Both the position numbers and the translations under genes were made by a program. Below are positions 9,536 to 61,649 of a stretch of DNA of 64,000 bases, piece by piece. Location: NCBI RefSeq assembly GCF_003597395.2, contig NC_133770.1, positions 5,948,038 through 6,012,037 on the forward strand. Direction: 5' to 3'. Under the pieces are notes generated by a model, which saw only the letters and a list, made by a program, of their open reading frames with translations, ran no database searches and was not told the DNA's origin. Each line of letters starts with the position of its first letter. Position 1 is the stretch's first letter. This DNA is from Chelonoidis abingdonii. Taxonomy: Eukaryota > Chordata > Testudines > Testudinidae.

Positions 9536-9806
9536 TGGGGGGGGGGGGGGCTTACCCCAGGGCCAGGTAACCCCCCCCAGGGGCCAGGCCTGCTCGTGGG
9601 GTTACCCCCCCCAGGGGCCAGGCCTGCTCCCCTCGCCCCCCGGGCCAGGCCTGCTCGTGGGGTTACCCCCCCAGGGGCCAGGCCTGCTCGGGGTTCGCCT
9701 CCAGGGGCCAGGCCTGCTCATGGGGTTAACCCCCCCCCCACCCGGCCCAGGCCTGCTCGGGGTTCGCCCCCAGGCGACAGGCCGGGGGGGGGGTTAACCC
9801 CCGGCT
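9536..9806 (+). repeat. minisatellite just inside intron 1
   Basis: There are about six to seven degenerate copies of a unit of roughly 30 to 35 bases, built around CAGGGGCCAGGCCTGCTC and separated by TGGGGTTACCCCCC-type spacers. Runs of G (9539-9550) and C flank the units. It begins about 75 bases after the exon 1 donor. It is likely to be length-variable and hard to sequence. The 161-codon frame at 9467-9952 is a by-product of the repetitiveness. Confidence 0.85.
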
Positions 9807-23202: not shown

Positions 23203-24390
23203 TAACATAAGAACAGACATACTGGTTCAGACTAGTAGTACATTCAGGTCAGTATCCTGTCTCTGATAGTAGTGGCGCATAGGGAATGAACAGAATGGGT
23301 CAATTTCAAGTGATCTGTCTTCTAGTCCCAGGTTCAAGAAATGGGAGGGTTCGGGACACCAAGAGCATGGGTTTGCATCCTGACCATCTTGGCTAAGAGC
23401 CATTGATAGACCTAGCCTCCATCAACTTAGGATTCTTTTTTGAACCTAGTTATACTTTGGCCTTCACAGAATCCACCAGCAATGAGTTCCACAAGTTGAC
23501 TGTGTGTTGTATGAAGAAGTACTTCCTTATGTTTGTTTTAAACAAATTAATTTCATTGGGTATCTTGTTATCTGAAGGGGTAAATAATACTTCTCTATTC
23601 CATTCATGATTTTATAGCCCTCTATCCTAGCCTAGTCATCTCTCTTCTAAACTGTACAGTCCCAGTCCTTTTACACTCCTCTGATATGGAAGTTGTTCCA
23701 TTCTCCTCCTCATTTCCATTGCTCTTCTCTGCACCTTTTCCAATTGTATCTTTTTTGGATGGGGTGACCAGAACTGTATGCAGTTTTCAAGCTGTAGGCG
23801 AACTGTGGATTTACATAGTGGCATCATGATATTTTTTGCTTTATTAGCTAACCTTTTCCTAGTGGATCCTAACCTGTTAACTTTTTTTGACTGCCGCTGC
23901 ATGTTGAGTGGATGTTTTCAGAGAACTAACCATGATGACTCCAAGATCTCTTTCTTGAGTGGTAACAGCAAATTTAGATCCCATCATTTTGTATGTATAG
24001 TTGGGTTTATTTTTTCCAATGTGCATTCCTTTGTACTTATCAACACTGAATTTCATCTCCCATTTTGTTGCTCAGTCACCCAATCTATTGTGATCCATTT
24101 GTAACTTTCTGCAGTCAGCTTTGGACTAAATGATCTTGAGTAACTTTGTATCATCTGCATATTTTGCCACCTCACTGTTCATCCCCCTTTCCAGATCATT
24201 TATTAATATATTGAACAGCACAGGTCCCAATAGTGATCCTTGGGTGACCCTGCTATTTACCTCTCTCCTTTGTGAAAACTGACAATTTATTCCTATCCTT
24301 CAATTCCCATCTCTTAACCTGTTACTGATCTGTGAGAGGACCTTCCCTCTTATCCCATCACTGCTTAGTTTGCTTAAGCTTCTGTGGCTT
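23203..24390 (-). mobile_element. CR1 LINE, 3' part, minus strand
   Basis: This reads as the reverse complement of the 3' half of a reptilian CR1. From left to right on + it runs from the 3' end (TAACATAAGAACAGACATAC) through the C-terminal Pol region. The minus frame at 23636-23902 still reads like the CR1 reverse-transcriptase tail (contains 'LEKVQRRAMEMRRRMEQLPY'). It continues into the conserved 'gccacctcactgtt' region near 24165. It is several frameshifts and stops away from function. The same region appears on + in the copy at 37284-37966, so the two could be compared for age. Confidence 0.85.
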
Positions 24391-34377: not shown

Positions 34378-35302
34378 CTGGTTTTCCATATACAAGAGGT
34401 GGCTTCATTTTTCAGTGCACTAAATATTTTATTTCAGATAGGTCATGTTTAAGGAATGAAAAACAGATCTGATAAAGATTTCAGGTAATTCATCTTGACT
34501 TGTAATTTAAAAAAAACAAAAAATGTCATGATGGAGTTCTTAAATGTTCCCAGGAGTTGTTTTTTCTTCAGTAGAGACATGCACTATAACAATCTTTTAA
34601 TCATATATTTATAGACAGTGTGTCATCTAATGGTTAGAGCAGGAGCTTGAACCTAGGACTGACTCCTGGATTTTACTTCTAGCTCTGTCATTGATCTCTG
34701 TGTTGCTTTAGGCAAGTCACTTTGTGTATCACAGTTGATCTAACTGTAAAATACTGTCCAGAATTTAGGTGCAACAAAGCCTACTTAATTTTGTGACGTG
34801 TTTTGCAAGTCTCAAATAAATGCCCAAATATTACAATGATGAGCAGCATAGAAAACCCTGATTAGAAGACAACAGAATAAAATAAAGTGCCAGGCAATCT
34901 GAATATGGAGGTTTCAAGTGTGTCAGTCTTGAAATAAGCAAATCTCAATGATCTCTTTCATACTTCCGACCTCTCCCTGATATTCAGGGCTATCCATGAT
35001 ATTTCTTTTAAAAGTCTCCTTCAGGGACTGAACATATGTCAAATACTGCCGGGCACTAAAAGATAGGAGACATTGATTTTCTGAGTCTCTAGGTTTGATT
35101 CTCCATTTCTTTTCATCTTCCATATATAGTTACCTGTAAGCACAGGCTGCAGATCTGGTAGTTTCTTGTAGACAGTGCAGTAATAGTGGGTCTTGAGAAG
35201 AGAGTAAGTTTATAGACTGGTTCAGAGAGGACAGTCCAGTCATATAGCCAACATGAAAGAAGGCATGGATAATGGCATAGAGAGTTTTACTTTACAGTTA
35301 TA
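34378..35302. other. foreign block inside the CR1, contains a MIR-like SINE
   Basis: This 0.9-kb block lies between the minus-strand CR1 end and the point where the plus-strand CR1 resumes. 34612-34740 reads like a MIR/CORE-SINE (CATCTAATGGTTAGAGCAGG, then GCTTTAGGCAAGTCACTT). A minus-strand frame of 66 codons (34923-35123) has no family I recognise. Because an old SINE sits inside a younger LINE, the block probably arrived by duplication or rearrangement, not as a plain transposon. Confidence 0.5.
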
Positions 35303-35724
35303 AATGGAGAGGTAAATAGTGGTGTCCCCTGGGCGTCTGTTCTCTGACCAGTCCTATTCAACATATTCATAAATGATTTGGAAAAAGGTGTAAACAGTGA
35401 GGTGGCAAAATTTGTCGATAACAATTACTCAAGATAGTTCACAGAGGCAGACTGTGAAGAGCTACAAAAAGATCTCTTAAAACTGGGTGACTGGGCAACA
35501 AAATGGCAGGGAAAATTTAATGTTGATAAAGGCAAAGTAATGGACATTGAAAAGCATAATCTCAACTATACCTATAAAATATTGGGGTCTAAATTAGCTG
35601 TTACCACTCAAGAAAGAGATCTTGGAATCATTGTGGATAGTTCTCTGAAAACATCTAGTCAGTGTGCAGTGGCAGTCAAAAAAGTGAACAGAATGCTGGG
35701 AATAATTAAGAAAGGGATAGATAA
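35303..35724 (+). mobile_element. CR1 LINE, segment 2 (RT palm/thumb)
   Basis: It resumes exactly where segment 1 stopped (AATGGAGAGGTAAATAGT). It reads as reverse-transcriptase sequence around the catalytic box, here degraded to FVDN in place of FADD (near 35410), followed by a thumb region (TTQERDLGIIVDSSLKTSSQ, 35600-35659). It stops at GGATAGATAA, where the CACTG transposon is inserted. Confidence 0.85.
35722..35724. repeat. target-site duplication TAA, left copy
   Basis: TAA before CACTG is repeated as TAA at 37284-37286 after CAGTG. Removing the insertion and one copy restores an uninterrupted CR1 sequence (GATAGATAATAGGACAG), which fixes both ends of the insertion. Confidence 0.8.
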
Positions 35725-37283
35725 CACTGCTCTACAGCCAAAATGCTTCTGAAATAAATGTAGTCAAACTTTACTAATTCTGGGTCACTGAGAACGAAAA
35801 TGATGCTTAAAATTGTTGATTGGCTCTAGTCTAGCTGTTGGGCTCCAGACTACAGCAGTGGAATCTCCTGGCAGGTGATGTCAGGGTTTCCATGTTCCGT
35901 GACCGTCAAAAGGATCTTGTCCCATTCTTCTTCATGATAGGTGATCTTGTAGCCTGCAACAACATCGATGGTGCGATGGCAGCCCTCAACATCATTCACG
36001 ATCCAGATGAGTGGAGACTGTTCATTGATTCATCGAAGACGAGTCTTAAAGCTGTTTTGCTGCATAATGGCAATGTTTTGCCATCAATTCCAGTTGGTCA
36101 TGCAGTCCATATGAAGGAAACCTATGACAACATGAAACAACTTTTGAGGTGCATAAACTATGACCAACATCAGTGGCAGCTTTGTGGCGATTTGAAGGTT
36201 GTTGCTCTCTTGCTTGGTCTGCAGACTGGATACACAAAGTACTGCTGTTTTCTCTGCGAATGGGATAGTCGTGCAAGAGATTCCCACTACATCAAGAAAG
36301 ATTGGCCACTCCGACAGTCATTGGAGCCTGGGAGGAAAAGTGTTCAGCATCCACCACTTGTTGAATCAAGGAAGATTTTGTTACCACCCTTACACATCAA
36401 GCTGGGTCTGATGAAGAACTTTGTCAAGGCCATTGACAAAACACAAGCAGCTTTCAAGTACCTCCTTGGAAAATTTCCAAGGTTAAGTGAAGCTAAGATA
36501 AAGGAAGGTGTCTTTGTTGGTCCTCAGATTCGTGAACTTCTTCGAGATGATGCATTTGACCATGCACTGCGTGGCAAGGAAAAGACGGCATGGAAAGCCT
36601 TCCAGTTAGTGGCAATAAATTTTCTCGGAAACAACAAGGCAGACAACTACAGGTTGTTGGTGGAAAACCTCCTCAAGGCATACAAAAGCCTTGGTTGCAA
36701 CATGTCACTAAAGATACATTTTTTGCACTCTCATCTAGATTTTTTTCCACCGAACTGCGGAGCAGTGAGCGACGAGCACGGCGAGCGATTTCACCAGGAC
36801 ATTGCAACAATGGAGAAACGCTATCAGGGCAAATGGAGCCCATCAATGCTTGCAGACTATTGCTGGACAGTGACAAGAGATGCTCCATTTAATGAATACA
36901 AGAGACAAGCCAAGAAGCGCCGAGTAGACACTGAATAGGACTAAACTATGTACATAATAGTTTTTTGCCTTTTGTTTCATAATAAATTTTATTTATATAA
37001 CCCTTTTGCTGATTTTTAAAGTGTTACATAAACAGGACAGGTGAAATATTATCATGTAAAGCAACCATAAACACATGAAAAGACCTAGGTTTACAATTTA
37101 TGATTAAAACTCTACTATCTACACAATATACATAGACATAAAATGTAAAAACTTAAATATCTTAGAAACAGTAGCCAATCAGTTGTTTTAATTGTCATAT
37201 TTGAATTCAGCACATCAAAATACATAATAAATACTACATTTTATCTCTGAAGCAGACGACTTCTCAAAAATTGTAGACCAGTG
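35725..37283 (+). mobile_element. 1559-bp DNA transposon with CACTG ends nested in CR1
   Basis: The left end CACTGCTCTACA and the right end TGTAGACCAGTG form an inverted repeat (11 of 12). A second matching block follows a little inside: CTTCTGAAATAAATGTAGT on the left, against CTTCAGAGATAAAATGTAGT on the complement of the right. The target duplication is TAA (3 bp). CACTR-type ends with a 2-4 bp duplication fit the CMC group (EnSpm/CACTA, Mirage, Chapaev), but I do not claim the superfamily firmly. The only long frame is at 35838-36938; a polyadenylation signal AATAAA follows at 36981-36986. The element is short for an autonomous CMC transposon, so it may be a deletion derivative. Confidence 0.82.
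35838..36938 (+). CDS. transposon-encoded protein, C-terminal part, 366 codons open
   Basis: This is a continuous frame of 366 codons. The first codon is TTG, not ATG, and the first in-frame ATG is at 35892. A TAG at 35832-35834 cuts the frame off from what looks like more coding sequence upstream, so the N-terminal part is missing or broken. Recognisable landmarks are EWRLFIDSSKTSLKAVLLHN, CGDLKVVALLLGLQTGYTKY, the Cys pair CCFLCEWDSRARDSHY, LLPPLHIKLGLMKNFVKAID, and the C-terminal DEHGERFHQDIATMEKRYQG. I know near-identical blocks from repeated 'uncharacterized' proteins in arthropods and other animals. Asp and Glu residues in IDSSK, GDLK and DEHGERFHQD are candidates for a DDE-type catalytic set (inference). 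The frame is intact while the surrounding CR1 is full of stops, which suggests a more recent arrival. It ends with a basic tail (KRQAKKRR). Confidence 0.75.
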   Translation: MGSRLQQWNLLAGDVRVSMFRDRQKDLVPFFFMIGDLVACNNIDGAMAALNIIHDPDEWRLFIDSSKTSLKAVLLHNGNVLPSIPVGHAVHMKETYDNMKQLLRCINYDQHQWQLCGDLKVVALLLGLQTGYTKYCCFLCEWDSRARDSHYIKKDWPLRQSLEPGRKSVQHPPLVESRKILLPPLHIKLGLMKNFVKAIDKTQAAFKYLLGKFPRLSEAKIKEGVFVGPQIRELLRDDAFDHALRGKEKTAWKAFQLVAINFLGNNKADNYRLLVENLLKAYKSLGCNMSLKIHFLHSHLDFFPPNCGAVSDEHGERFHQDIATMEKRYQGKWSPSMLADYCWTVTRDAPFNEYKRQAKKRRVDTE

Positions 37284-37966
37284 TAATAGGACAGAAAATA
37301 ACATGTTGTCTCTATATAAATCCATGGTACGCCCGCATCTTGAATACTGTGTGCAGATGTGGTCGCTGCTTCTCAATAAAGATATATTGGAATTGGAAAA
37401 GGTTCAGAAAAGGGCAACAAAAATGATTAGGGGTATGGAACGGCTTCCATATGAGGAGAGATTAATAAGACAGGGACTTTTCAGCTTGGAAAAGAGACGG
37501 CTAAGGGAAGATATGATTGAGGTCTATAAAATGCTGACTGGTATAGAGAAAGTAGATAAGGAAGTGTTGTTTACTACTCATAACACAAGAATTAGGGGTC
37601 ACCAAATGAAACTAAAAGGCAGCAGGTTCAAAACAAATACAAGGAAGTATTTCTTCACACAGCGCACAGTCAGCCTGTGAAACTCCTTGTCAGAAGATGT
37701 GAAGGCCAAGACCATAACAGCAGCATTCAAAAAAGAGCTAGATAACTTCATGGAGGTTTAGGTCCATCAATTGCTGTTAGCCAGGATGGGCAGGGAGGGT
37801 GTCCCTAGCCTCTGTTTGCCAGACGCTGGGAATGGGTGATGGGATGAATCACTTGATTCTTGGTTCTGTTCATTCCCTCTGGGGCACCTCGCACTGGCCA
37901 CTGTCAGAAACCATAATATTGGGCTAGATGGACCTTTGGTCTGACCCAGTAGGGCCATTCTTATGT
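37284..37966 (+). mobile_element. CR1 LINE, segment 3 (C-terminal Pol and 3' end)
   Basis: It continues segment 2 without loss (after the TAA duplication). The frame 37303-37680 contains [20 protein letters not shown] and [20 protein letters not shown], the hallmark C-terminal region of CR1 Pol. After the stop at 37678-37680 the 3' UTR follows, with CCAGGATGGGCAGGGAGGGT and GGGCTAGATGGACCTTTGGT, ending near TTCTTATGTAGG. The three CR1 segments add up to about 2.3 kb of one element. Confidence 0.9.
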
Positions 37967-38480
37967 AGGGCTCAATTTCCCAGCGGGGAGCCTACGAGCC
38001 TTGTCAGTTTCACAGCTTCAGCTGTGAGCTCCTCTGCTGCTCTGAGTCTGAGGCAGTCCTGAAATGGACAGTAAAGGCTAGTAGGCTCCCTGTTGTGAAC
38101 CCCTTGTGGGCTCAGAGCTCAGGCAGCCATCCAGGCGCAGGTGGGGGGCTCCAGCTGTGTTTCCAGCTGCCACCTGGGTTCTCTGTTCCCCACTTCTGTC
38201 AGAGCTTACTAGCTGGAGCCTGGCTGCTGTCCGGGCTCTCAGCCAGAGTCCAGATAGTTTAGCTCTGTGAGGAGCGAGCCGCTGAGAGCCTGGGCAGCAG
38301 CCCCTCATGCTGCTCCTGTTAAGTTGGTGCAAGAGCTCCTATTGAGGACATGCGCTGCTGACAGAAGGAGGGTAGAGAGGACATGAAAAACCTCAGTAAT
38401 GACTGCAGTAGCTATATGTCAACGTAACTTAGGGCATGTCTACACTACAAACTTATGTCGACTTAAGTCGCATTCAATCA
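37967..38480. mobile_element. right part of the MITE-like element split by CR1
   Basis: It starts GCTCAATTTCCCAGCGGGGA, repeats the ACAGCTTCAGCTGTGAG word seen left of the CR1, and near 38431-38470 contains AGGGCATGTCTACACTACAA followed by the palindrome TCGACTTAAGTCG. The last part could instead be the start of another MITE copy. The 84-codon minus frame is not a gene. Confidence 0.4.
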
Positions 38481-44313: not shown

Positions 44314-45230
44314 AAGATGGATGTCCAAAAACCAAATAAGCCCACTTTGGTTCATGCACCGAACACTGCTGATTTCAGGTTCTGATGGACTGATAAGGAA
44401 AGTGAATTTCAAAGAGGAAGAGGCTCTTTACTGATAAAGTTTTATTGCCAGTCTCTGAGTTCTGTTTCTTTTCCATCATAAGAGCGTTCCAATTTTATCT
44501 GAGGAGACAGAGGTAGTCGCTCAGATAACCAGGTCCCAGACAATTCAGTAAGCTCCTCCCACATTTGAAATGTGTCTGAAAACCAATGGAATTGGTGGAA
44601 AAATACTAGCACCCTCTTTGGATTTTATCCAAAATCACAAGTTAGACAGCTGCCTGGAGGTGACAATAGTATGAATGGAGCTTCTTTAAGGCAGTTATGT
44701 TGGAATAATTCCATTCACTAACACCCAGCTCATTGGAAATTACCTGTGAATGATGTAAGATCATTGGAGAAAACTAACTTTTGTGAGTTTGTCAGAAATT
44801 TCACTTGCAGTCTGACTTGTTCTGAAAAGTTACTGCATTACAGTACAAAGTCTTCTATGAAGTGAAAACAAATGGGCATAATCTTGGCAATCCAGTATAG
44901 TTTTTCTAAAGTCAGAACAGGGGGCTGTGCAACTGTTGAAATAGTTTAATATATTAAATCCTTTACCTCCAAGAGAAATGGATTAACATTTTGAATGGGT
45001 CCTGTCTAGGTCCTAAAAGACATTTTGTTCAAACTTCAAAATTACTGCATAATTGATTCTGTATAGAAGAGACCCAGTTCTGGAATGTGGTGTGGTCATA
45101 CTATCTCTGACTTCAGCCAAGCTTATCTGTTATTTTTATGATCATTAAAAATTTATGAGTTAAAGGGTTATTGTTTAATACTGTATGCAGAGTGCAGTTA
45201 TTCCTTTAACTGCCTATCTTTTTATTGCAG

Positions 45231-48200
45231 GGGAAGACTGAAAATGTGCAGAAAGCTGGTTTTGTCAAAGGCCCAGTGTTCAAAGGTGTTGCTTCTAGCC
45301 GCTTTTTGCCCAAAGGCACCAAGACAAAGGTTAACCTTGAGGAACAAGGAAGACAGAAGGTGTCTTTCAGCTTTAGTTTAACAAAGAAAACCTTGCAGAA
45401 TAGATTTCTGACTGTTCTTGGAAATGAAAAACAGAATGAAACTCAGAACTCCCCAGCTACACCCCTTCCAACTGACTTTGCCCCCAAAATTAAAATGGAC
45501 CTTGGGGATACCTCTGGTTCAGCAGAAGAATCTTCACCACCAAAACCAAAGGTGGAATTGGGCAAGATCCATTTTAAGAAGCATCTGCTCAGTGTAACAG
45601 CAAAGCCACTGTCAGCTGCTGTAGCACCACCATCATCGCTAGCAGCTGTAGCACCAGCAGAAATACCAGCAGCAGCAGAATTGCCATTGACATCACCTCC
45701 GCTGCTCTCCCAAACAGCATCTCCACCACCACCAGTGCTAACAGCAGTAGCTTTTCCCCAACCACCTACAGCAGTATCAGTGACAGCAGCACCGCTTCTG
45801 CTACCACCTGTAGAATCAGAAGTCCAAACTTCAAAAGAGCTATCAAATGCAGTAGCAAAAGAAACTTTAGAACTGGACGTTAAACAGGATTCTGCATCTA
45901 ACAGTTCCGAAGAACATGTAACTCAAAATGTGTCTGAGCAAATGGAAATAACTTCACAGCAGGAAGATTCCCATATTGGGAAGGAGGAAGAAATTTCAAA
46001 CAGCTCAAGAAGTGTTTCTTTGTGCTCCAAAAAGCAGGGTTCTAAGAGGAAATTTTCTCAATCTGATGCCACGTTACTGGGTTCTGAATCTGATGAAGAT
46101 TCTATAAGGACTTCTTCAAGTCAGAGATCACATGAATTAAAAATATCAACAAGTACAGAAAAGGAAGGAGATCCAAAAAAGAGCTCAACTTCTCTCAAAA
46201 GTGAAGATTCGGTGAAATCTTCCTCACGATCTAAATCGGACAGAGATGAGAAACATTCTAGCCACTCAAAACCAGAGAGAGACTCTAGGTATATGTCCTC
46301 CCGGTCTAGGTCAGACAGGGACAGAAGACGGAGCAGGTCTCATTCTCGTTCTAGGTCTGACAGAGGTTCTAGAACCAGCTCATCCTATTCAAGATCAGAA
46401 CGCTCTCATTATTATGAATCTGACCGAAGATACCATAGAAGTTCCCCTTACAGAGAGAGGACAAGGTATTCACGTTCTTACACAGATAGCAGGACAAGAG
46501 AGAGTTCTGATTCAGAAGATGAGTATAGGAGGACCCATTCCAAGTCTAGTGACTCAAGACGTACGTCATCTCATTCTTCCTCATACAGGGATTCTAGAAC
46601 TTCTTCCTACTCTAAATCAGACCGGGACAGCAAAACAGAGTCTTCTTATGCTGAAACAGAGAGGAGAGGAAAGTCTTCAAAATCAGATAGAGAATCAAAA
46701 AGGACTTCAGAAAGTGAAGTATCAAAAAGATGTTCTCCCCTTAATGAGCTGGGTTATCGAAGGGGGTCATCCCATTCTAAACCTGATAGTAATGTGAACT
46801 CTTCCCATTATAAGTACACCCCTACAAAGACTTCTGCACCAAAGTCTGATAAGTCTAAAAGTTCTTTCTGTTGTACAGAATCAGTTGAAGTCAAACAGCA
46901 GTCTAATTCTTTAGATTTAGAGACACCTTGTCTAAAAAGCAATGAGTTGAGAATGACTATTATAAAAAAGTTTGAAAGGGAAAAGACGGTTTCTCCATTC
47001 AGTCAATTAAATGATTCACCTACTTTTAAAAAGCTAGATGAATCAAAAGATGGTTCTCCTAATTTGAAGTCTGAACTTATAGGAAATGATTGCCATGACA
47101 GTATTAAGGAACCAGAAAATTTAATAAAAGTAAAACGCGATCAATTAAGAACTTATTGTCCCATAGAACTGAATATAAATGGGTCCCCAAAGGGTAGATC
47201 TGATGACTTGGCAACTTTCTGTGTCTCCAAAACAGAGGATATTGCAATGTCTTTTGATGATAGTCTAGGTAGATCAGAGGAATCACCATTGATAAAAAGT
47301 AATAAATTTTGTGTGTTGCCATCTAATGGATTTCAAAGTGTATATAAATCTAAAGAACAAGATTTGAATGATTCTCATATACAGTCTAATGAATTCAACA
47401 GCTCATTTAAAGAAAGAGAGGCTCCAGTTCCTTCAGAGCAAGATGAAGTTATTTCTTCTCCTGTTACGAATGTAGATCATTCTGAAATGTTAGTTAAAAA
47501 ATTGGATAATCTGGGAACTCCTTGTAACAGAACCAAAGATTCAGACTTTTGCTACATTTCAGATGATACTAGTCCTTCTTTGTATCATTCAGAAGTTGAA
47601 ATTGAAGTTGAGCCCACTGATATAAAAGTTACTCAAGAAACTTTAATGGACATTCATGTAGAGCCACAAACGGTGACATGTGATTATAAAAACACGGAGG
47701 ATCAAAATTCAACGAAGTCTGCATGTGAAGATGAACTATATGATATTAGTTCCTCCCATGAGCCAAGCCTAACAGTAGATAGTTTAAGCAGAGATTCTTC
47801 CCAAGAAGAATGCTCCCTGGAAATCAAATCAGACAATGAAATTATTACACCACAACCAGAGGAAAACCTTGCTTCCAGATTGGATAGAGCCATGCAGAAT
47901 GAAAGTGAAGAATGCTTGCAACATTCTGAAACTGAGATGATGATTGAATTAGATGCCCAGCAAATTGGTCCTGATTTAGAAAAAGGAAAACCATCATTTA
48001 AAAATGAGCATTCATATTATTTAGAAGTACCAGTAGAACACTTAGAAAAAGAGAAACCAGTTGAGGAAAGTTCTACCATCTTCACTGAAAAAATCAGGTC
48101 TGATTTTAAGGACCAGTCTCTGGAAGTCTCAGTTGGCAATGATGAAGAAAATGAGTCAGTGGTGGTTTCTGCTTTTTCAGAGGCTTTGTTTCCATCTTGT

Positions 48201-49681
48201 GATGTCATTGTGACTGCAGAAGAAACAGAAACTGTAGTTCAAGCTGCCACCTGTGACAGTAGTGGCAATACTTCTGAATTCATTTCTACTCATAACGATG
48301 ATTATTCTGATACGGCAGAAAGTGAGAGTGAGCAGGACAGTGAAGAAAGCGATACAGAGGATTCTGATGACAGTGTTCCAAGGAACCGTCTTCAGTCAGT
48401 TGTGGTGGTTCCTAAGAATTCCACTCTAAGTATGGAAGAAAGTAGTCCTTGTTCATCTCGGAGCAGCCAAGGTAATACACGTTACTCTGATAATTGGGAA
48501 GACGATAGGCCAGAGTCCAGCAAACCTTACTATGAAGAAAGATCAGAGAATACAGCAAATAAAAATGGTCCACATATTGAGAACAAGTGTTCTCCTTCTA
48601 GGGGGATGGACAGGAGTCTAGCTACATCTACTGAGCTGAATAGAAAGGAAGCTGAAGATCTCCAGCCTGATATTTCTCAGCCTCAGAGTGATGGAGTTGA
48701 TAGTACAAGTCAGACAGACCTAACACCAAATTCTAATGGCAAACCAAATCCAGATGAAAGAATATTGAAAGAATTGATGTCATTAGCTAGACCGCTTGGC
48801 AGACAGCAAGACGAGCAGCCATTTTGTTTTTCTGAGAGCTTTGAAAGTGCTGAAAATAAATCTAGGCACCAGACAAATTTTTCCAAGCCAGACAGCAGGC
48901 AAGGAAAGAGTGGGTTCAGTAATGTATCTGGTACAGGAGAGTTCTCCAGATTGGATGGTTTTCATTCAACAGAGGACTTGGGTAACCTGGGGTGGGACTT
49001 CTCTCAACCAGAGAAACCCAGTAGCACATACCAGCAGCCTGACAGCAGCTATGGAATGTACTCGGGTTACGTTTGCCAGCAGGGTTCAGGATCATACAGT
49101 GGCTCACAGAATTACTGGCAAGGCAATGGCTGTTGGGACCCAAGGTTTGGTAGTAGGCCCTCTGGAATTAATTATGAACGAATACAAGGGCAGGTACCAG
49201 ATTCCCTAACAGAGGACCACGAAGGGTATGAACAGGATGACAATTGGGATGATGATTGCAAAGCTCACTTTCCTAGCCAGGCAAGTAAATTTCATTCTCT
49301 CAGTGATAAAGAAAAGGGTTCTGTGCAGGCACATGAGATAAGCAGTAATTCGGCAAAGGAACCAACAGTTGTAAATGAGAAAAAAGAGCAGGCAAGCATT
49401 TTGGAAAAAAATGATGTGAAAGAGCGAGGACCACCAAAGAAAAGAAGGCAAGAATTAGAGAGTGACTCTGAGAGCGATGGAGACCCAAGAGAGAGAAAGA
49501 AAGTAAAAACAGATGGAGAAGGGGAGCAGTCGGAGTCCTTGCCTCAGGGTTCAGTAGTGGTTCGCCCACTGTGTATCATGGAAGAGTTCAGAGACCCACA
49601 ACGCTGGAAGGAGTGTGCCAAGCAAGGAAAAATGCCCTGCTACTTTGACCTTATTGAGGAAAATGTGTATTTAACAGAAAG
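45231..49681 (+). CDS. SETD2: SETD2 exon 3, giant exon (N-terminal disordered region)
   Basis: The exon is 4451 nt with no stop, phase 0 in and phase 2 out. The acceptor is TTTTTATTGCAG at 45219-45230 and the donor AAAG|GTAACT at 49682. It encodes residues 19-1501 and two bases of Arg1502. It opens with the conserved block GKTENVQKAGFVKGP and KGVASSRFLPKGTKTKVNLE. A Pro/Ala/Val-rich stretch (about residues 139-218) is followed by a Ser/Arg- and Ser/Asp-rich region (about 340-520, with RRSRSHSRSRSDRGSR), then a long acidic, Ser-rich middle and a conserved end with KKRRQELESDSESDG and RDPQRWKECAKQGKMPCYFD. This part of SETD2 is intrinsically disordered and known to influence protein stability and condensation. 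It comes before the AWS domain. A second + frame of 183 codons (46246-46797) and several minus frames are shadows. Confidence 0.97.
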
Positions 49682-51647
49682 GTAACTAATGGATTTTCAC
49701 CTGTTTGCTTCTAATAGTTTACATTTCAGTTTATCGAACATTTAGAAAGATACAACAATCTTCTCCGAGCAGTAGGAGAGTGATGAGAGAGAGGGAATAT
49801 CACATTTTCACCACTTAAGAAAGCTTTTCATAGAGAAGAGGAAGGATTAGCCATGAGAGGTGTGGAGAGAGAAGGTCAAGATTATCAGATTCACTGGCAG
49901 TCCGTAGAAACATGTTAGAGCAAAATGTAGCCAAATGGAGGGGTGATAGTCATAAGTGCTTGGAGGAATTTAGCTCCTGCTAGTATTAATTGGCTATGCT
50001 GGTTTAATTTTCACATGCAGTGCTTAAAAAAAAATTGGTTGTCTTTGCTGTTGAGTGGCCTGATAAGCTGAAGATTGAAAATTAGGGGTGCATTTGAGGC
50101 TGCTCAGGTCCATGCTAGTTAGCACTTATTATTCTCATACATCTCCGTGTACCCATGGCAGTTCATAAGAATGGTTTTCATTATTTTACCTCCCTTTTTG
50201 TTATATACCATTCATCTGAACTTCATGTGAGTATACAGGAGCCTGGAGCATATAGAAACTTCTCTTCAGGGCTTGACATATCCATTTGCCTGTGGCCTCA
50301 GGCAACAGATTTTTTTTTCTCAGGACAGGTGAATGGCTGTCTTGACTGCAGGAAGAGAGGTTTTGCACTGTCAATGTGGGTTTTAAATGTTACATATGTA
50401 ACCACTTGTAAATAAAGAATATAATTTTAACACTCCCAGAATTGCAATCTGAATGTTTAAAAGATGACAGCTAATTGCAAATTATTTTATTTCCTGTTGC
50501 ATAGGAATATTTGATGTATTTTTACTATATCTTATCACTGAACCAGACATTCTGGTTTCCATGCTCTGGGAATGGCTAAAAACATGATGCTTCAGAGCCA
50601 GACATCCCTTCCCTCTCAGAAATGTCAGCACACAATTGTCTAGTGCTGTAAAGGAATGGGTATAAAAGTACTCTGGTGGCCCTCATGGCAATGAACTTAA
50701 ACTCTGAATTATTTGATTATAGTTAATTTATGTTATATGTAAACATTAATAATTTTGCCCTTTTGAAATCTAGCTGTGGTATGTAACTCAGCAGGTTTAC
50801 TGTATGATCTGCGAAATAATACTTAATTTCTTTTAAATATAATGGCCTGTATTTTCATCAAGTGATTCCTTGTTCTCATACAATTGGATGAGGTAATAAG
50901 TAGTACTTTATCATTCTTTTCATAGGTTTGAATACCTCAGCCAAGTTCTGTCCACTTGTTATCCTTTTTAGGACCCCCCCCCCCCCCAAAGGTCCCATTT
51001 ATGACACTATTTACGATTAGCGCCCTACAAGCTGTGTATCTTGCACTGTGATGCGAGAAACACAAATTTGATTCCCAGTCCTGCTCTCTGGTTCTTTAGG
51101 CTGCTGAAGGACAGCATGAACCCTGGGGCAGAAAGACTGTTTTGCCCCTGAAATACAGGTACAATCTTTCTGAAGACTTCCCCACATATCTCTTCTCCAT
51201 AAATTGTGGTGACTTGGAATGGTCTCTGCCTATCATTTGTGCCAGCCTAGCTCAGGCTAATTTCTATAAAGATTTTAAGATTTATTCCTTTGAAAATTCT
51301 ATTCTTACCCTGCACTGAAAAAACTAAGCTAGAGTTTTACCATTACTCAGCGTGTAGCTGCAATGAAATTAAAGTAGGACTGTGCATTAAAAAGAGGTGG
51401 AGAATACTTAAATTGCATTAACATCTTGATAGTCTTTTCTGAATATTGCATCTCGTCATGAACTTACCAAAAATAATGCTCCTGACTGCTCTTACATCCT
51501 GTTGATGTAAACTGAATAGTTGAACAGTGATTTCTAAAAGGCAAATCAATTTTAGTCCAGTAGCAAATGATAAAGATTGAGTTAATTTTAGATGGAGTGA
51601 TTTTTGTCTATATGGGTATGTTATAATGCTGCCTTAACCTCCCCCAG
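49682..51647 (+). other. SETD2: SETD2 intron 3 (2.0 kb)
   Basis: GTAACT donor and CTTAACCTCCCCCAG acceptor. It holds a poly-C run at 50976-50987 and, at 51010-51115, a stretch with ACAAATTTGATTCCCAGT that could be a very decayed tRNA-derived SINE (B-box-like). No exon is seen. Confidence 0.75.
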
Positions 51648-60120: not shown

Positions 60121-61003
60121 GTGAGTGGCAGTGTATATACATTTGTAGGAGGGAATATCGTGTGTGTACACAGCTCTAGGTAAATACAATTTTACTTGAA
60201 TGTGGCATGCACAAATAGCAGGTTTTTTTCTCAAAGTCCAAATCCCTGTTTTTCATTTAAGCCCTTTTACCTGACAGGAGCTATATCAAACAGTGTTAAT
60301 GGCTACTTATAGCTAATTTAAGCTATTGATATACCAGTAGTTCTTCTTTCGTTGTCTTCTGTAAATCGCTGCTCTTGGAGTTAAATCCCTAACTGGATCT
60401 GGAATAGTTACAAGCCTAAGGAAGATTCATAGGCCCTAAGGCTCTGAGGGGACCATGTCTGTAAAAATACATTTTAATATTTTTCTTTTCCACGTAAGCA
60501 ATTTCTGTAGTTGGCCATGGGGTTGTTGTTATATGGTCACGAATTTGGGGGGAGAGGGTGCAGTAGAATAGTGTGCCCATTTGTGAATGGGTGGGCAACA
60601 TGGTACATGAGATAATCTTTGTATTAAAACATGATCTATGTGACAAAAACATTTCAGATCTCCTGGTGTGGACATTGCTGGGGGCTGCATGGGTGGGAAA
60701 TAATTGTTAAGATTTAAAATATAATAATAACCCCAGAACCAAGGAGAAATACGATGCATACTGTCTTAATACTATGGATAACAATGTAAATCAAATAAGT
60801 GTGTTTTCTCATACACAATTTTTATTACGAAACCTTTTTTCTCCAAAGCTATTACGGCTGATGCACAAAACAGGAAAGAATTATTAAAATTCTTATGGAA
60901 GTTTTCACCTTCAGCTTGCTACATACGCATGCTGACTTTTGCTTCTGCCATAGCACAGAGGAGAGGAAGAGTGCTTTTTGCTATAATTACTTTTCACTTT
61001 CAG
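60121..61003 (+). other. SETD2: SETD2 intron 6 (883 nt)
   Basis: GTGAGT donor, CTTTTCACTTTCAG acceptor. Nothing but unassigned AT-rich sequence was seen. Confidence 0.8.
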
Positions 61004-61081
61004 ATAATAGATGCAACCCAGAAAGGAAACTGCTCCCGTTTCATGAACCACAGCTGTGAACCAAACTGTGAGACACAAAAG
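61004..61081 (+). CDS. SETD2: SETD2 exon 7 (SET domain, NHSCEPN)
   Basis: The exon is 78 nt, 26 codons, phase 0 to 0. It encodes IIDATQKGNCSRFMNHSCEP followed by NCETQK, residues 1631-1656. The NHSCEPN motif (1645-1651) forms the SAM-binding pseudoknot; Cys1648 is the SET-core zinc ligand that pairs with post-SET cysteines. Arg1642 corresponds to human Arg1625 (from memory), a residue whose change abolishes H3K36me3. Confidence 0.97.
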
Positions 61082-61403
61082 GTGAGCTTCAAAGAAAACC
61101 TCCTGCTGCTTTGTTTTCAGTTTTGTTTCCGAGTTTTAACATGCTCAGTAGAAAATTCATTTGCCATTGATCTTTGCGCCTCTATCATTCAATCACTGCT
61201 ATTCAAAAGTAAATATATACCTTGGAAACCGGCTAATGCAGACACTTCAGTTTGGGATTTTAAGATCCTTCAGAGATGTTTTCTGCCTCTTGGAGGGTTA
61301 GCAATGTCTCTTGCCAGAGTTCCTTCATTTAATGTAGAAACTGGAGGGTCAAGCCTGGGTATTATAATAATCAATATTGTCATCTATTTTTTTCCTGCTG
61401 TAG
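61082..61403 (+). other. SETD2: SETD2 intron 7 (322 nt)
   Basis: This is the shortest intron in the window, GTGAGC to CTGCTGTAG. It has no in-frame stop when read from exon 7, so an unspliced message would stay open across it (see findings). Confidence 0.85.
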
Positions 61404-61501
61404 TGGACTGTGAATGGACAGCTAAGGGTTGGGTTTTTCACCACCAAACTAGTTCCATCAGGCTCAGAGCTAACATTCGACTACCAGTTCCAGAGATATG
61501 G
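61404..61501 (+). CDS. SETD2: SETD2 exon 8 (SET C-terminal motif)
   Basis: The exon is 98 nt, 32 codons + 2 bases. It encodes WTVNGQLRVGFFTTKLVPSG followed by SELTFDYQFQRY, residues 1657-1688, with Gly1689 split. ELTFDY (1678-1683) is the SET C-terminal motif with the catalytic Tyr1683 (human Tyr1666 by my count). The donor is TATGG|GTAGGT at 61502. The next exon, with KEAQKCFCG and the post-SET cysteines, is not in the window. Confidence 0.97.
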
Positions 61502-61649
61502 GTAGGTATTTTCTCTGTTTGTCTGCTTCAGTGTTACGAGTGGGTCTCCCTGAGTGCTCATATAATTAAGAAATTGTGCTGCAAAACTGACCAGTGAAAA
61601 GACATCCAAATGTATGTGAACAGTAGAAATCAAATTGGAGGTTAGGGAT

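Follow-up and report, generated by a model that had tools for sequence, protein, structure and literature searches.

Within a 64,000-nucleotide stretch of the Chelonoidis abingdonii genome (contig NC_133770.1, positions 5,948,038 to 6,012,037 of the forward strand), hereafter the window, to whose coordinates all positions refer, a 1,559-bp transposon lies inside a CR1 copy. We read this element, with a probability of about 0.86, as a non-autonomous, internally deleted, Merrow-like cut-and-paste transposon of the Chapaev3 group, one copy of a derivative present about 950 times, whose parent was most likely acquired horizontally. It retains both ends, is flanked by a 3-bp duplication of a target preferred by its sister copies as well, has a full-length relative in the same genome from which an internal deletion separates it, and has been amplified. 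The features are located in Table 1.

Table 1. Features of the transposon and its insertion site
Feature	Position	Strand	Basis or remark
Chapaev3-type DNA transposon, 1,559-bp internal-deletion derivative	35725..37283	+	ends, target-site duplication, empty-site paralogue
5' terminal inverted repeat, CACTGCTCTACA	35725..35736	+	
3' terminal inverted repeat, CACTGGTCTACA, read inward from 37283	37272..37283	-	
TAA target-site duplication, left copy, preceded by A	35722..35724	.	
TAA target-site duplication, right copy, followed by T	37284..37286	.	
Older CR1 copy with empty target site	23379..24265	-	BLAST across the rejoined CR1, 72% identity in 937 columns
Internal-deletion junction, 991 bp lost (net)	35822..35846	+	seen against L027, a full-length copy
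367-codon open frame plus stop, putative transposase catalytic core without N-terminal domain	35835..36938	+	sense codons 35835-36935
First putative catalytic Asp, residue 65	36027..36029	+	invariant; near end of strand 60-66 in model
Second putative catalytic Asp, residue 119	36189..36191	+	invariant; directly after strand 115-118 in model
C(2)C pair, residues 138 and 141, putative zinc ligands	36246..36257	+	C138 invariant, C141 nearly invariant
LH motif, residues 186-187	36390..36395	+	H187 invariant, L186 nearly invariant
H(4)H pair, residues 295 and 300, putative zinc ligands	36717..36734	+	both nearly invariant
Third catalytic acid, candidates Glu 314 or Glu 317	36774..36785	+	both nearly invariant

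Insertion site and structure of the element

The initial annotation of this DNA had recognized the element by its ends, its terminal inverted repeats and a TAA duplication, all of which are plainly visible: CACTGCTCTACA and CACTGGTCTACA agree at 11 of 12 bases, with little similarity further in, and the flanks read ...GATAA and TAATA..., a 3-bp TAA duplication within ATAA / TAAT. It had also held that deleting the element restores the host, and indeed, once the element and one TAA are taken out, the CR1 frame is open for about 226 codons over the junction, and the older CR1 copy on the minus strand (24265-23379) aligns with the rejoined host without a gap at that point. With up to 3 mismatches allowed over 25 bases, the window contains no near-exact empty site. 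Because it is nested inside the CR1, the element is the younger of the two, and this position alone suffices as proof of its later arrival. The accompanying picture of a host CR1 full of frameshifts and stops was overdrawn, as the rejoined frame does carry seven stops in 379 codons (counted over 35300-38000 only), three in the first 280 codons or so and four in the last 80 or so, and is less broken than claimed. Those last codons presumably lie beyond the end of CR1 coding.

One internal deletion, about 950 copies

The searched genome comprised 2.26 Gb in 3,849 contigs. Among the best 40 of 1,602 candidates from a DNA search, 38 cover bases 1-1559 of the element and two cover bases 3-1559, at 99-100% identity. 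The best 111 of 2,522 candidates from a protein search are all stop-free, with a frame of 367 codons in 108, 372 in two and 566 in a single copy, L027. This last is the only full-length element among 79 fetched copies (the window copy included), the other 78 being the derivative; it measures 2,550 bp, has a 564-codon frame starting from ATG, and lacks an exact target-site duplication. Four more full-length copies and a rearranged one (L080-L084) have exact duplications, and all contain stops or frameshifts, which leaves L027 as the one long copy with an open frame among the six examined. When the missing part itself was used as query, 68 candidates were obtained and 40 scored, and 37 of 42 rows span 950 or more of the 961 bases in the query, with 88-100% identity.

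Compared with L027, the derivative lacks some of the leader, the start codon and roughly the first 196 codons, in keeping with the earlier view of a DNA transposon whose N-terminus is missing; tblastn with the first 200 residues of P0125, a metagenome protein discussed below, gave no trace of exon 1 in the window copy (best E 1.1). The deletion junction occurs, allowing one mismatch, at 949 places in the genome, a reversed control at none, and the majority sequence of the derivative differs from L027 in two codons, at none of 345 bases of 3' non-coding sequence and at two of 106 bases of the 5' end. Because the junction recurs at so many places and the derivative is nearly identical to L027, we infer from these comparisons a single deletion event in an L027-like element, followed by amplification far beyond the parent. 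The copy count that the initial annotation had proposed has revealed full-length copies as well.

The gene models P0051 and P0154, from Chrysemys (LOC103306399) and Gopherus (LOC127057686), both start at the first methionine of the derivative frame, a hint that the same derivative may also reside in Chrysemys and Gopherus, where it would be annotated as a gene.

Is the partial frame under selection?

The frame had rightly been called readable, although it has 367 codons and not 366: in 500 shuffled versions of the element no stop-free run is as long (mean 88, largest 179). It is conceivable, albeit unlikely, that the truncated protein is itself functional, for instance as a repressor of transposition, and that the derivative spread with its frame under selection. 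The P element offers a precedent in its repressor-type deletion products, which, like the turtle form, are internally deleted derivatives that were amplified with part of the frame still open, whereas the turtle derivative drops the N-terminal domain, keeps the core, and gives no clear evidence that its frame is selected.

Several observations do favor a functional product and weigh against the neutral view that we prefer. Besides the 111 stop-free protein matches, 39 of the 40 copies chosen by DNA similarity passed an exact frame test (the remaining one, L039, lacks the start motif used, yet is open in the protein search), and their 57 single-copy coding variants include no stops where 3.2 would be expected (P 0.04). 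Variants per site are also fewer in coding than in non-coding sequence, both in these 40 copies (0.052 vs 0.094) and in the 14 clean copies described below (0.067 vs 0.146), where the gap persists outside CpG (0.049 vs 0.185 and 0.127).

Both the 111 and the 40, however, were picked for similarity, as the top scorers among 2,522 and 1,602 candidates, respectively, and the bias is plain in the copies chosen by protein, whose divergence is 1.27% in non-coding and 0.26% in coding sequence; moreover, the ratio of nonsynonymous to synonymous changes (N/S) in the 40 DNA-chosen copies is 1.05. A systematic sample of 20 copies, drawn at intervals of about five from the first 100 among the 949 junction places (all on contig C1), has 16 exact duplications and 8 intact frames. 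Aligned with the window copy over some 1.5 kb, six of these copies (L085, L090, L091, L097, L100 and L101) have between 14 and 93 gap openings, which looks more like uncorrected long-read assembly than like decay, and they dominate the variants in the sample: with the 20 taken together, copies diverge from the majority by a median of 1.01% (mean 2.69%), N/S is 0.96 of neutral, and densities are 0.422 in coding and 0.413 in non-coding sequence. The 14 clean copies, found within the L086-L104 sample, have a median divergence of 0.77% (mean 0.86%), an N/S of 0.83 of neutral (P 0.27) and, among 74 coding variants, 4 stops where 3.9 would be expected.

By N/S and the stop test the frame thus appears to decay neutrally, although with 74 coding variants the indication is weak. 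The density gap is not proof of function, and we do not read it so because selection on a protein should show first in N/S and in stops, rather than in overall density alone. In simulations, the chance of a copy having no stop was 0.81 at 0.5% divergence and 0.65 at 1%, falling to 0.43 and 0.19, respectively, with one indel per eight substitutions. Given that the window copy differs from the derivative majority at only seven positions, its open frame is unsurprising for a young copy; as sampled copies carry stops at the chance rate, an open frame is poor evidence of function. Selection on the truncated frame, suggested by the intact best-scoring copies, was weakened as a candidate by the systematic sample, a reminder that transposons can carry long open frames that are not selected products.

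Relatives and probable horizontal transfer

The nearest proteins from named hosts are those of the turtles Chrysemys picta and Gopherus flavomarginatus: the window frame matches two Chrysemys proteins at 246 of 255 and 164 of 173 residues and the Gopherus protein at 93% over residues 20-125. Outside turtles it is 89% identical to a protein of the lamprey Lethenteron reissneri (247/276), 71% to a moth protein (258/363) and 67% to a frog protein (244/363). Arthropod relatives, which had been suggested on the strength of the encoded motifs, do exist in moths, a firefly and a pseudoscorpion. In a tree of 32 hand-chosen rows, with a fish row (Brienomyrus) as outgroup, the four turtle rows and P0001 fall on one side of a branch (98/93), and together with the lamprey and the metagenome protein P0125 they form a group (99/98) whose inner order is not resolved; frog, fish, leech and arthropods all stand outside it. 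P0125, from a JGI metagenome, is 96% identical to P0001 and sits within this turtle and lamprey clade.

Because the element tree conflicts with that of the hosts, the distribution suggests horizontal transfer, as had been proposed for this element. Inheritance from a vertebrate ancestor, the obvious alternative, would accommodate the finding of the family in both Chrysemys and Gopherus, hence in two or more genera of turtles and not as a single-species accident. We consider it improbable, as lamprey and moth are closer to the window frame than the frog is, the fish row lies far away in the tree, and the derivative copies are as young as the divergence of the clean sample indicates. Transfer of Chapaev3 elements among lampreys, fishes and insects is reported in PMC4079192, where it is already shown for lampreys and fishes and where turtles are not mentioned; likewise, text searches of open-license PubMed Central papers found no report of this transposon group in turtles. 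Our results would add a probable turtle host to a transposon group with an established record of transfer between widely separated animals. Searches of phage records, IMG/VR contigs, and bacterial and archaeal genome contigs returned no relatives, so that these collections gave no sign of a viral carrier.

Family assignment and predicted fold

The initial annotation had supposed a poorly described transposase family, and this we cannot sustain: every feature that could be tested fits Chapaev3 (CMC/Transib group), a group attributed to Kapitonov and Jurka (reference within PMC4411706), although a Pfam model is indeed absent. PMC4079192 describes the Chapaev3 families Merrow, Garfield and Conan, with TWA duplications between A and T and the motifs C(2)C, LH and H(4)H. 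Our element has inverted termini of the form 5'-CAC...GTG-3' and, in the window copy, A-TAA / TAA-T; among the 79 copies, the exact duplications are TWA in 54 of 64, within ATWAT in 35. The C(2)C motif, named in PMC4079192 and PMC12730594, and the LH and H(4)H motifs, named in the former, follow one another in the core in the order of the Chapaev3 list. The N-terminal Chapa zinc domain reported for Chapaev3 in PMC12730594 and PMC4411706 may correspond to the conserved Cys/His N-terminal region that L027 and its relatives possess and the window copy has lost.

Merrow (Chapaev3-1_PM; lampreys, fishes and a dragonfly) is the closest described family. According to PMC4079192, the sea lamprey element measures 2,451 bp and encodes 562 residues, against 2,550 bp and 564 residues here; it shares the TWA target between A and T and the three motifs, and the Lethenteron protein above is close, although not itself labelled Merrow. 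The same source reports a Merrow transposase in two exons (78 + 484 residues), whereas the L027 frame is one continuous run of 564 codons, and because of this difference we call the family Merrow-like rather than Merrow. Merrow proper is delimited by nucleotide identity to the lamprey consensus (80% or more over 300 bp); the comparison with the lamprey here was made at the protein level. Garfield and Conan are alike in group, target type and the possession of amplified deletion derivatives; theirs, as tabulated in PMC4079192, are 295-468 bp long, as opposed to 1,559 bp with the whole catalytic core in the turtle.

Judged in a 43-row alignment, the conservation of D65, D119 and the two glutamates, together with the predicted model, in which Glu 314 and Glu 317 lie at the start of helix 314-329, makes a catalytic Asp/Asp/Glu triad plausible, and the Cys/His quartet of the core would bind zinc; both ideas had been advanced for the Cys pair and the acidic residues of this frame. 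The structure prediction that had been recommended returned an RNase H-like core of the RAG1/Transib type, in the models as well as in fold matches. Identity in the structural alignments with RAG1 is 11-15% only, and the PDB yielded no relative by sequence profile, the kinship being seen by fold only; in the full-length search the N-terminal domain had no listed fold match of its own, the core having filled the list. The predicted fold supports, nearly end to end, a RAG1/Transib core in this kind of transposase, which was earlier argued from sequence.

Assignment to another CAC-ended superfamily (EnSpm/CACTA, Mirage or canonical Transib) has some appeal, as their ends are similar and they, too, have the motifs C(2)C and H(3-4)H (PMC12730594), which are common to Transib and RAG1 (PMC12730594 and PMC4411706), and 3-bp duplications are given for EnSpm in the former. 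It is nonetheless very unlikely, given that TWA within ATWAT, a 564-residue protein and the LH and H(4)H motifs agree with Chapaev3/Merrow in what PMC4079192 describes. Moreover, the nearest named host outside turtles is a lamprey, as in the description of Chapaev3/Merrow. Canonical Transib elements duplicate 5 bp of target rather than the 3 bp seen here. That the frame is a chance match or a host exon, which its lack of any Pfam family might suggest, is contradicted by the present results and has a negligible probability. As 4,235 homologues were found and no Pfam family matches the frame, many annotated uncharacterized proteins are probably this transposase.

Proposed mechanism and implications

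Full-length copies would encode a 564-residue transposase made of an N-terminal Cys/His-rich domain, probably a Chapa-type zinc finger that binds the ends, and a RAG1/Transib-like DDE (Asp/Asp/Glu) core. The enzyme is thought to pair both CACTG ends and excise the element, probably by a RAG-like nick and a hairpin on the flanking DNA, and to insert it into ATWAT-like targets with the 3-bp duplication seen in the flanks. Because the window copy has lost the N-terminal third and kept both ends, it is probably mobile only with enzyme supplied by a full-length element. One such derivative was amplified to about 950 copies, of which the window copy, within its CR1, is one, and the parent most likely came to the turtle lineage horizontally, out of a pool that lampreys share. 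A derivative this large, young and uniform is a good case of likely mobilization in trans.

A bolder scenario, in which a turtle lineage horizontally acquired a second RAG1-fold recombinase, now mostly present as about 950 core-only copies without the N-terminal zinc domain, and in which those with an intact frame make a core-only protein that modulates transposition in trans, strikes us as a long shot. If true, RAG1 would share one genome with a foreign RAG-like core that acts at CAC-ended sites, and the low density of coding variants would be a trace of the role of the core-only protein.

Surroundings of the element

The transposon lies about 8 kb upstream of, and on the same strand as, a 1,491-codon RS-rich frame (45210-49685, plus strand) of a SETD2-like host gene. 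Within 60782-61597, on the same strand, a 37-residue match to a SET domain has SETD2 as its best solved relatives. A GC-rich stretch at about 8-10 kb, possibly a CpG-rich region upstream of the SETD2-like gene, contains a 61-bp tandem repeat at 9577-9737.
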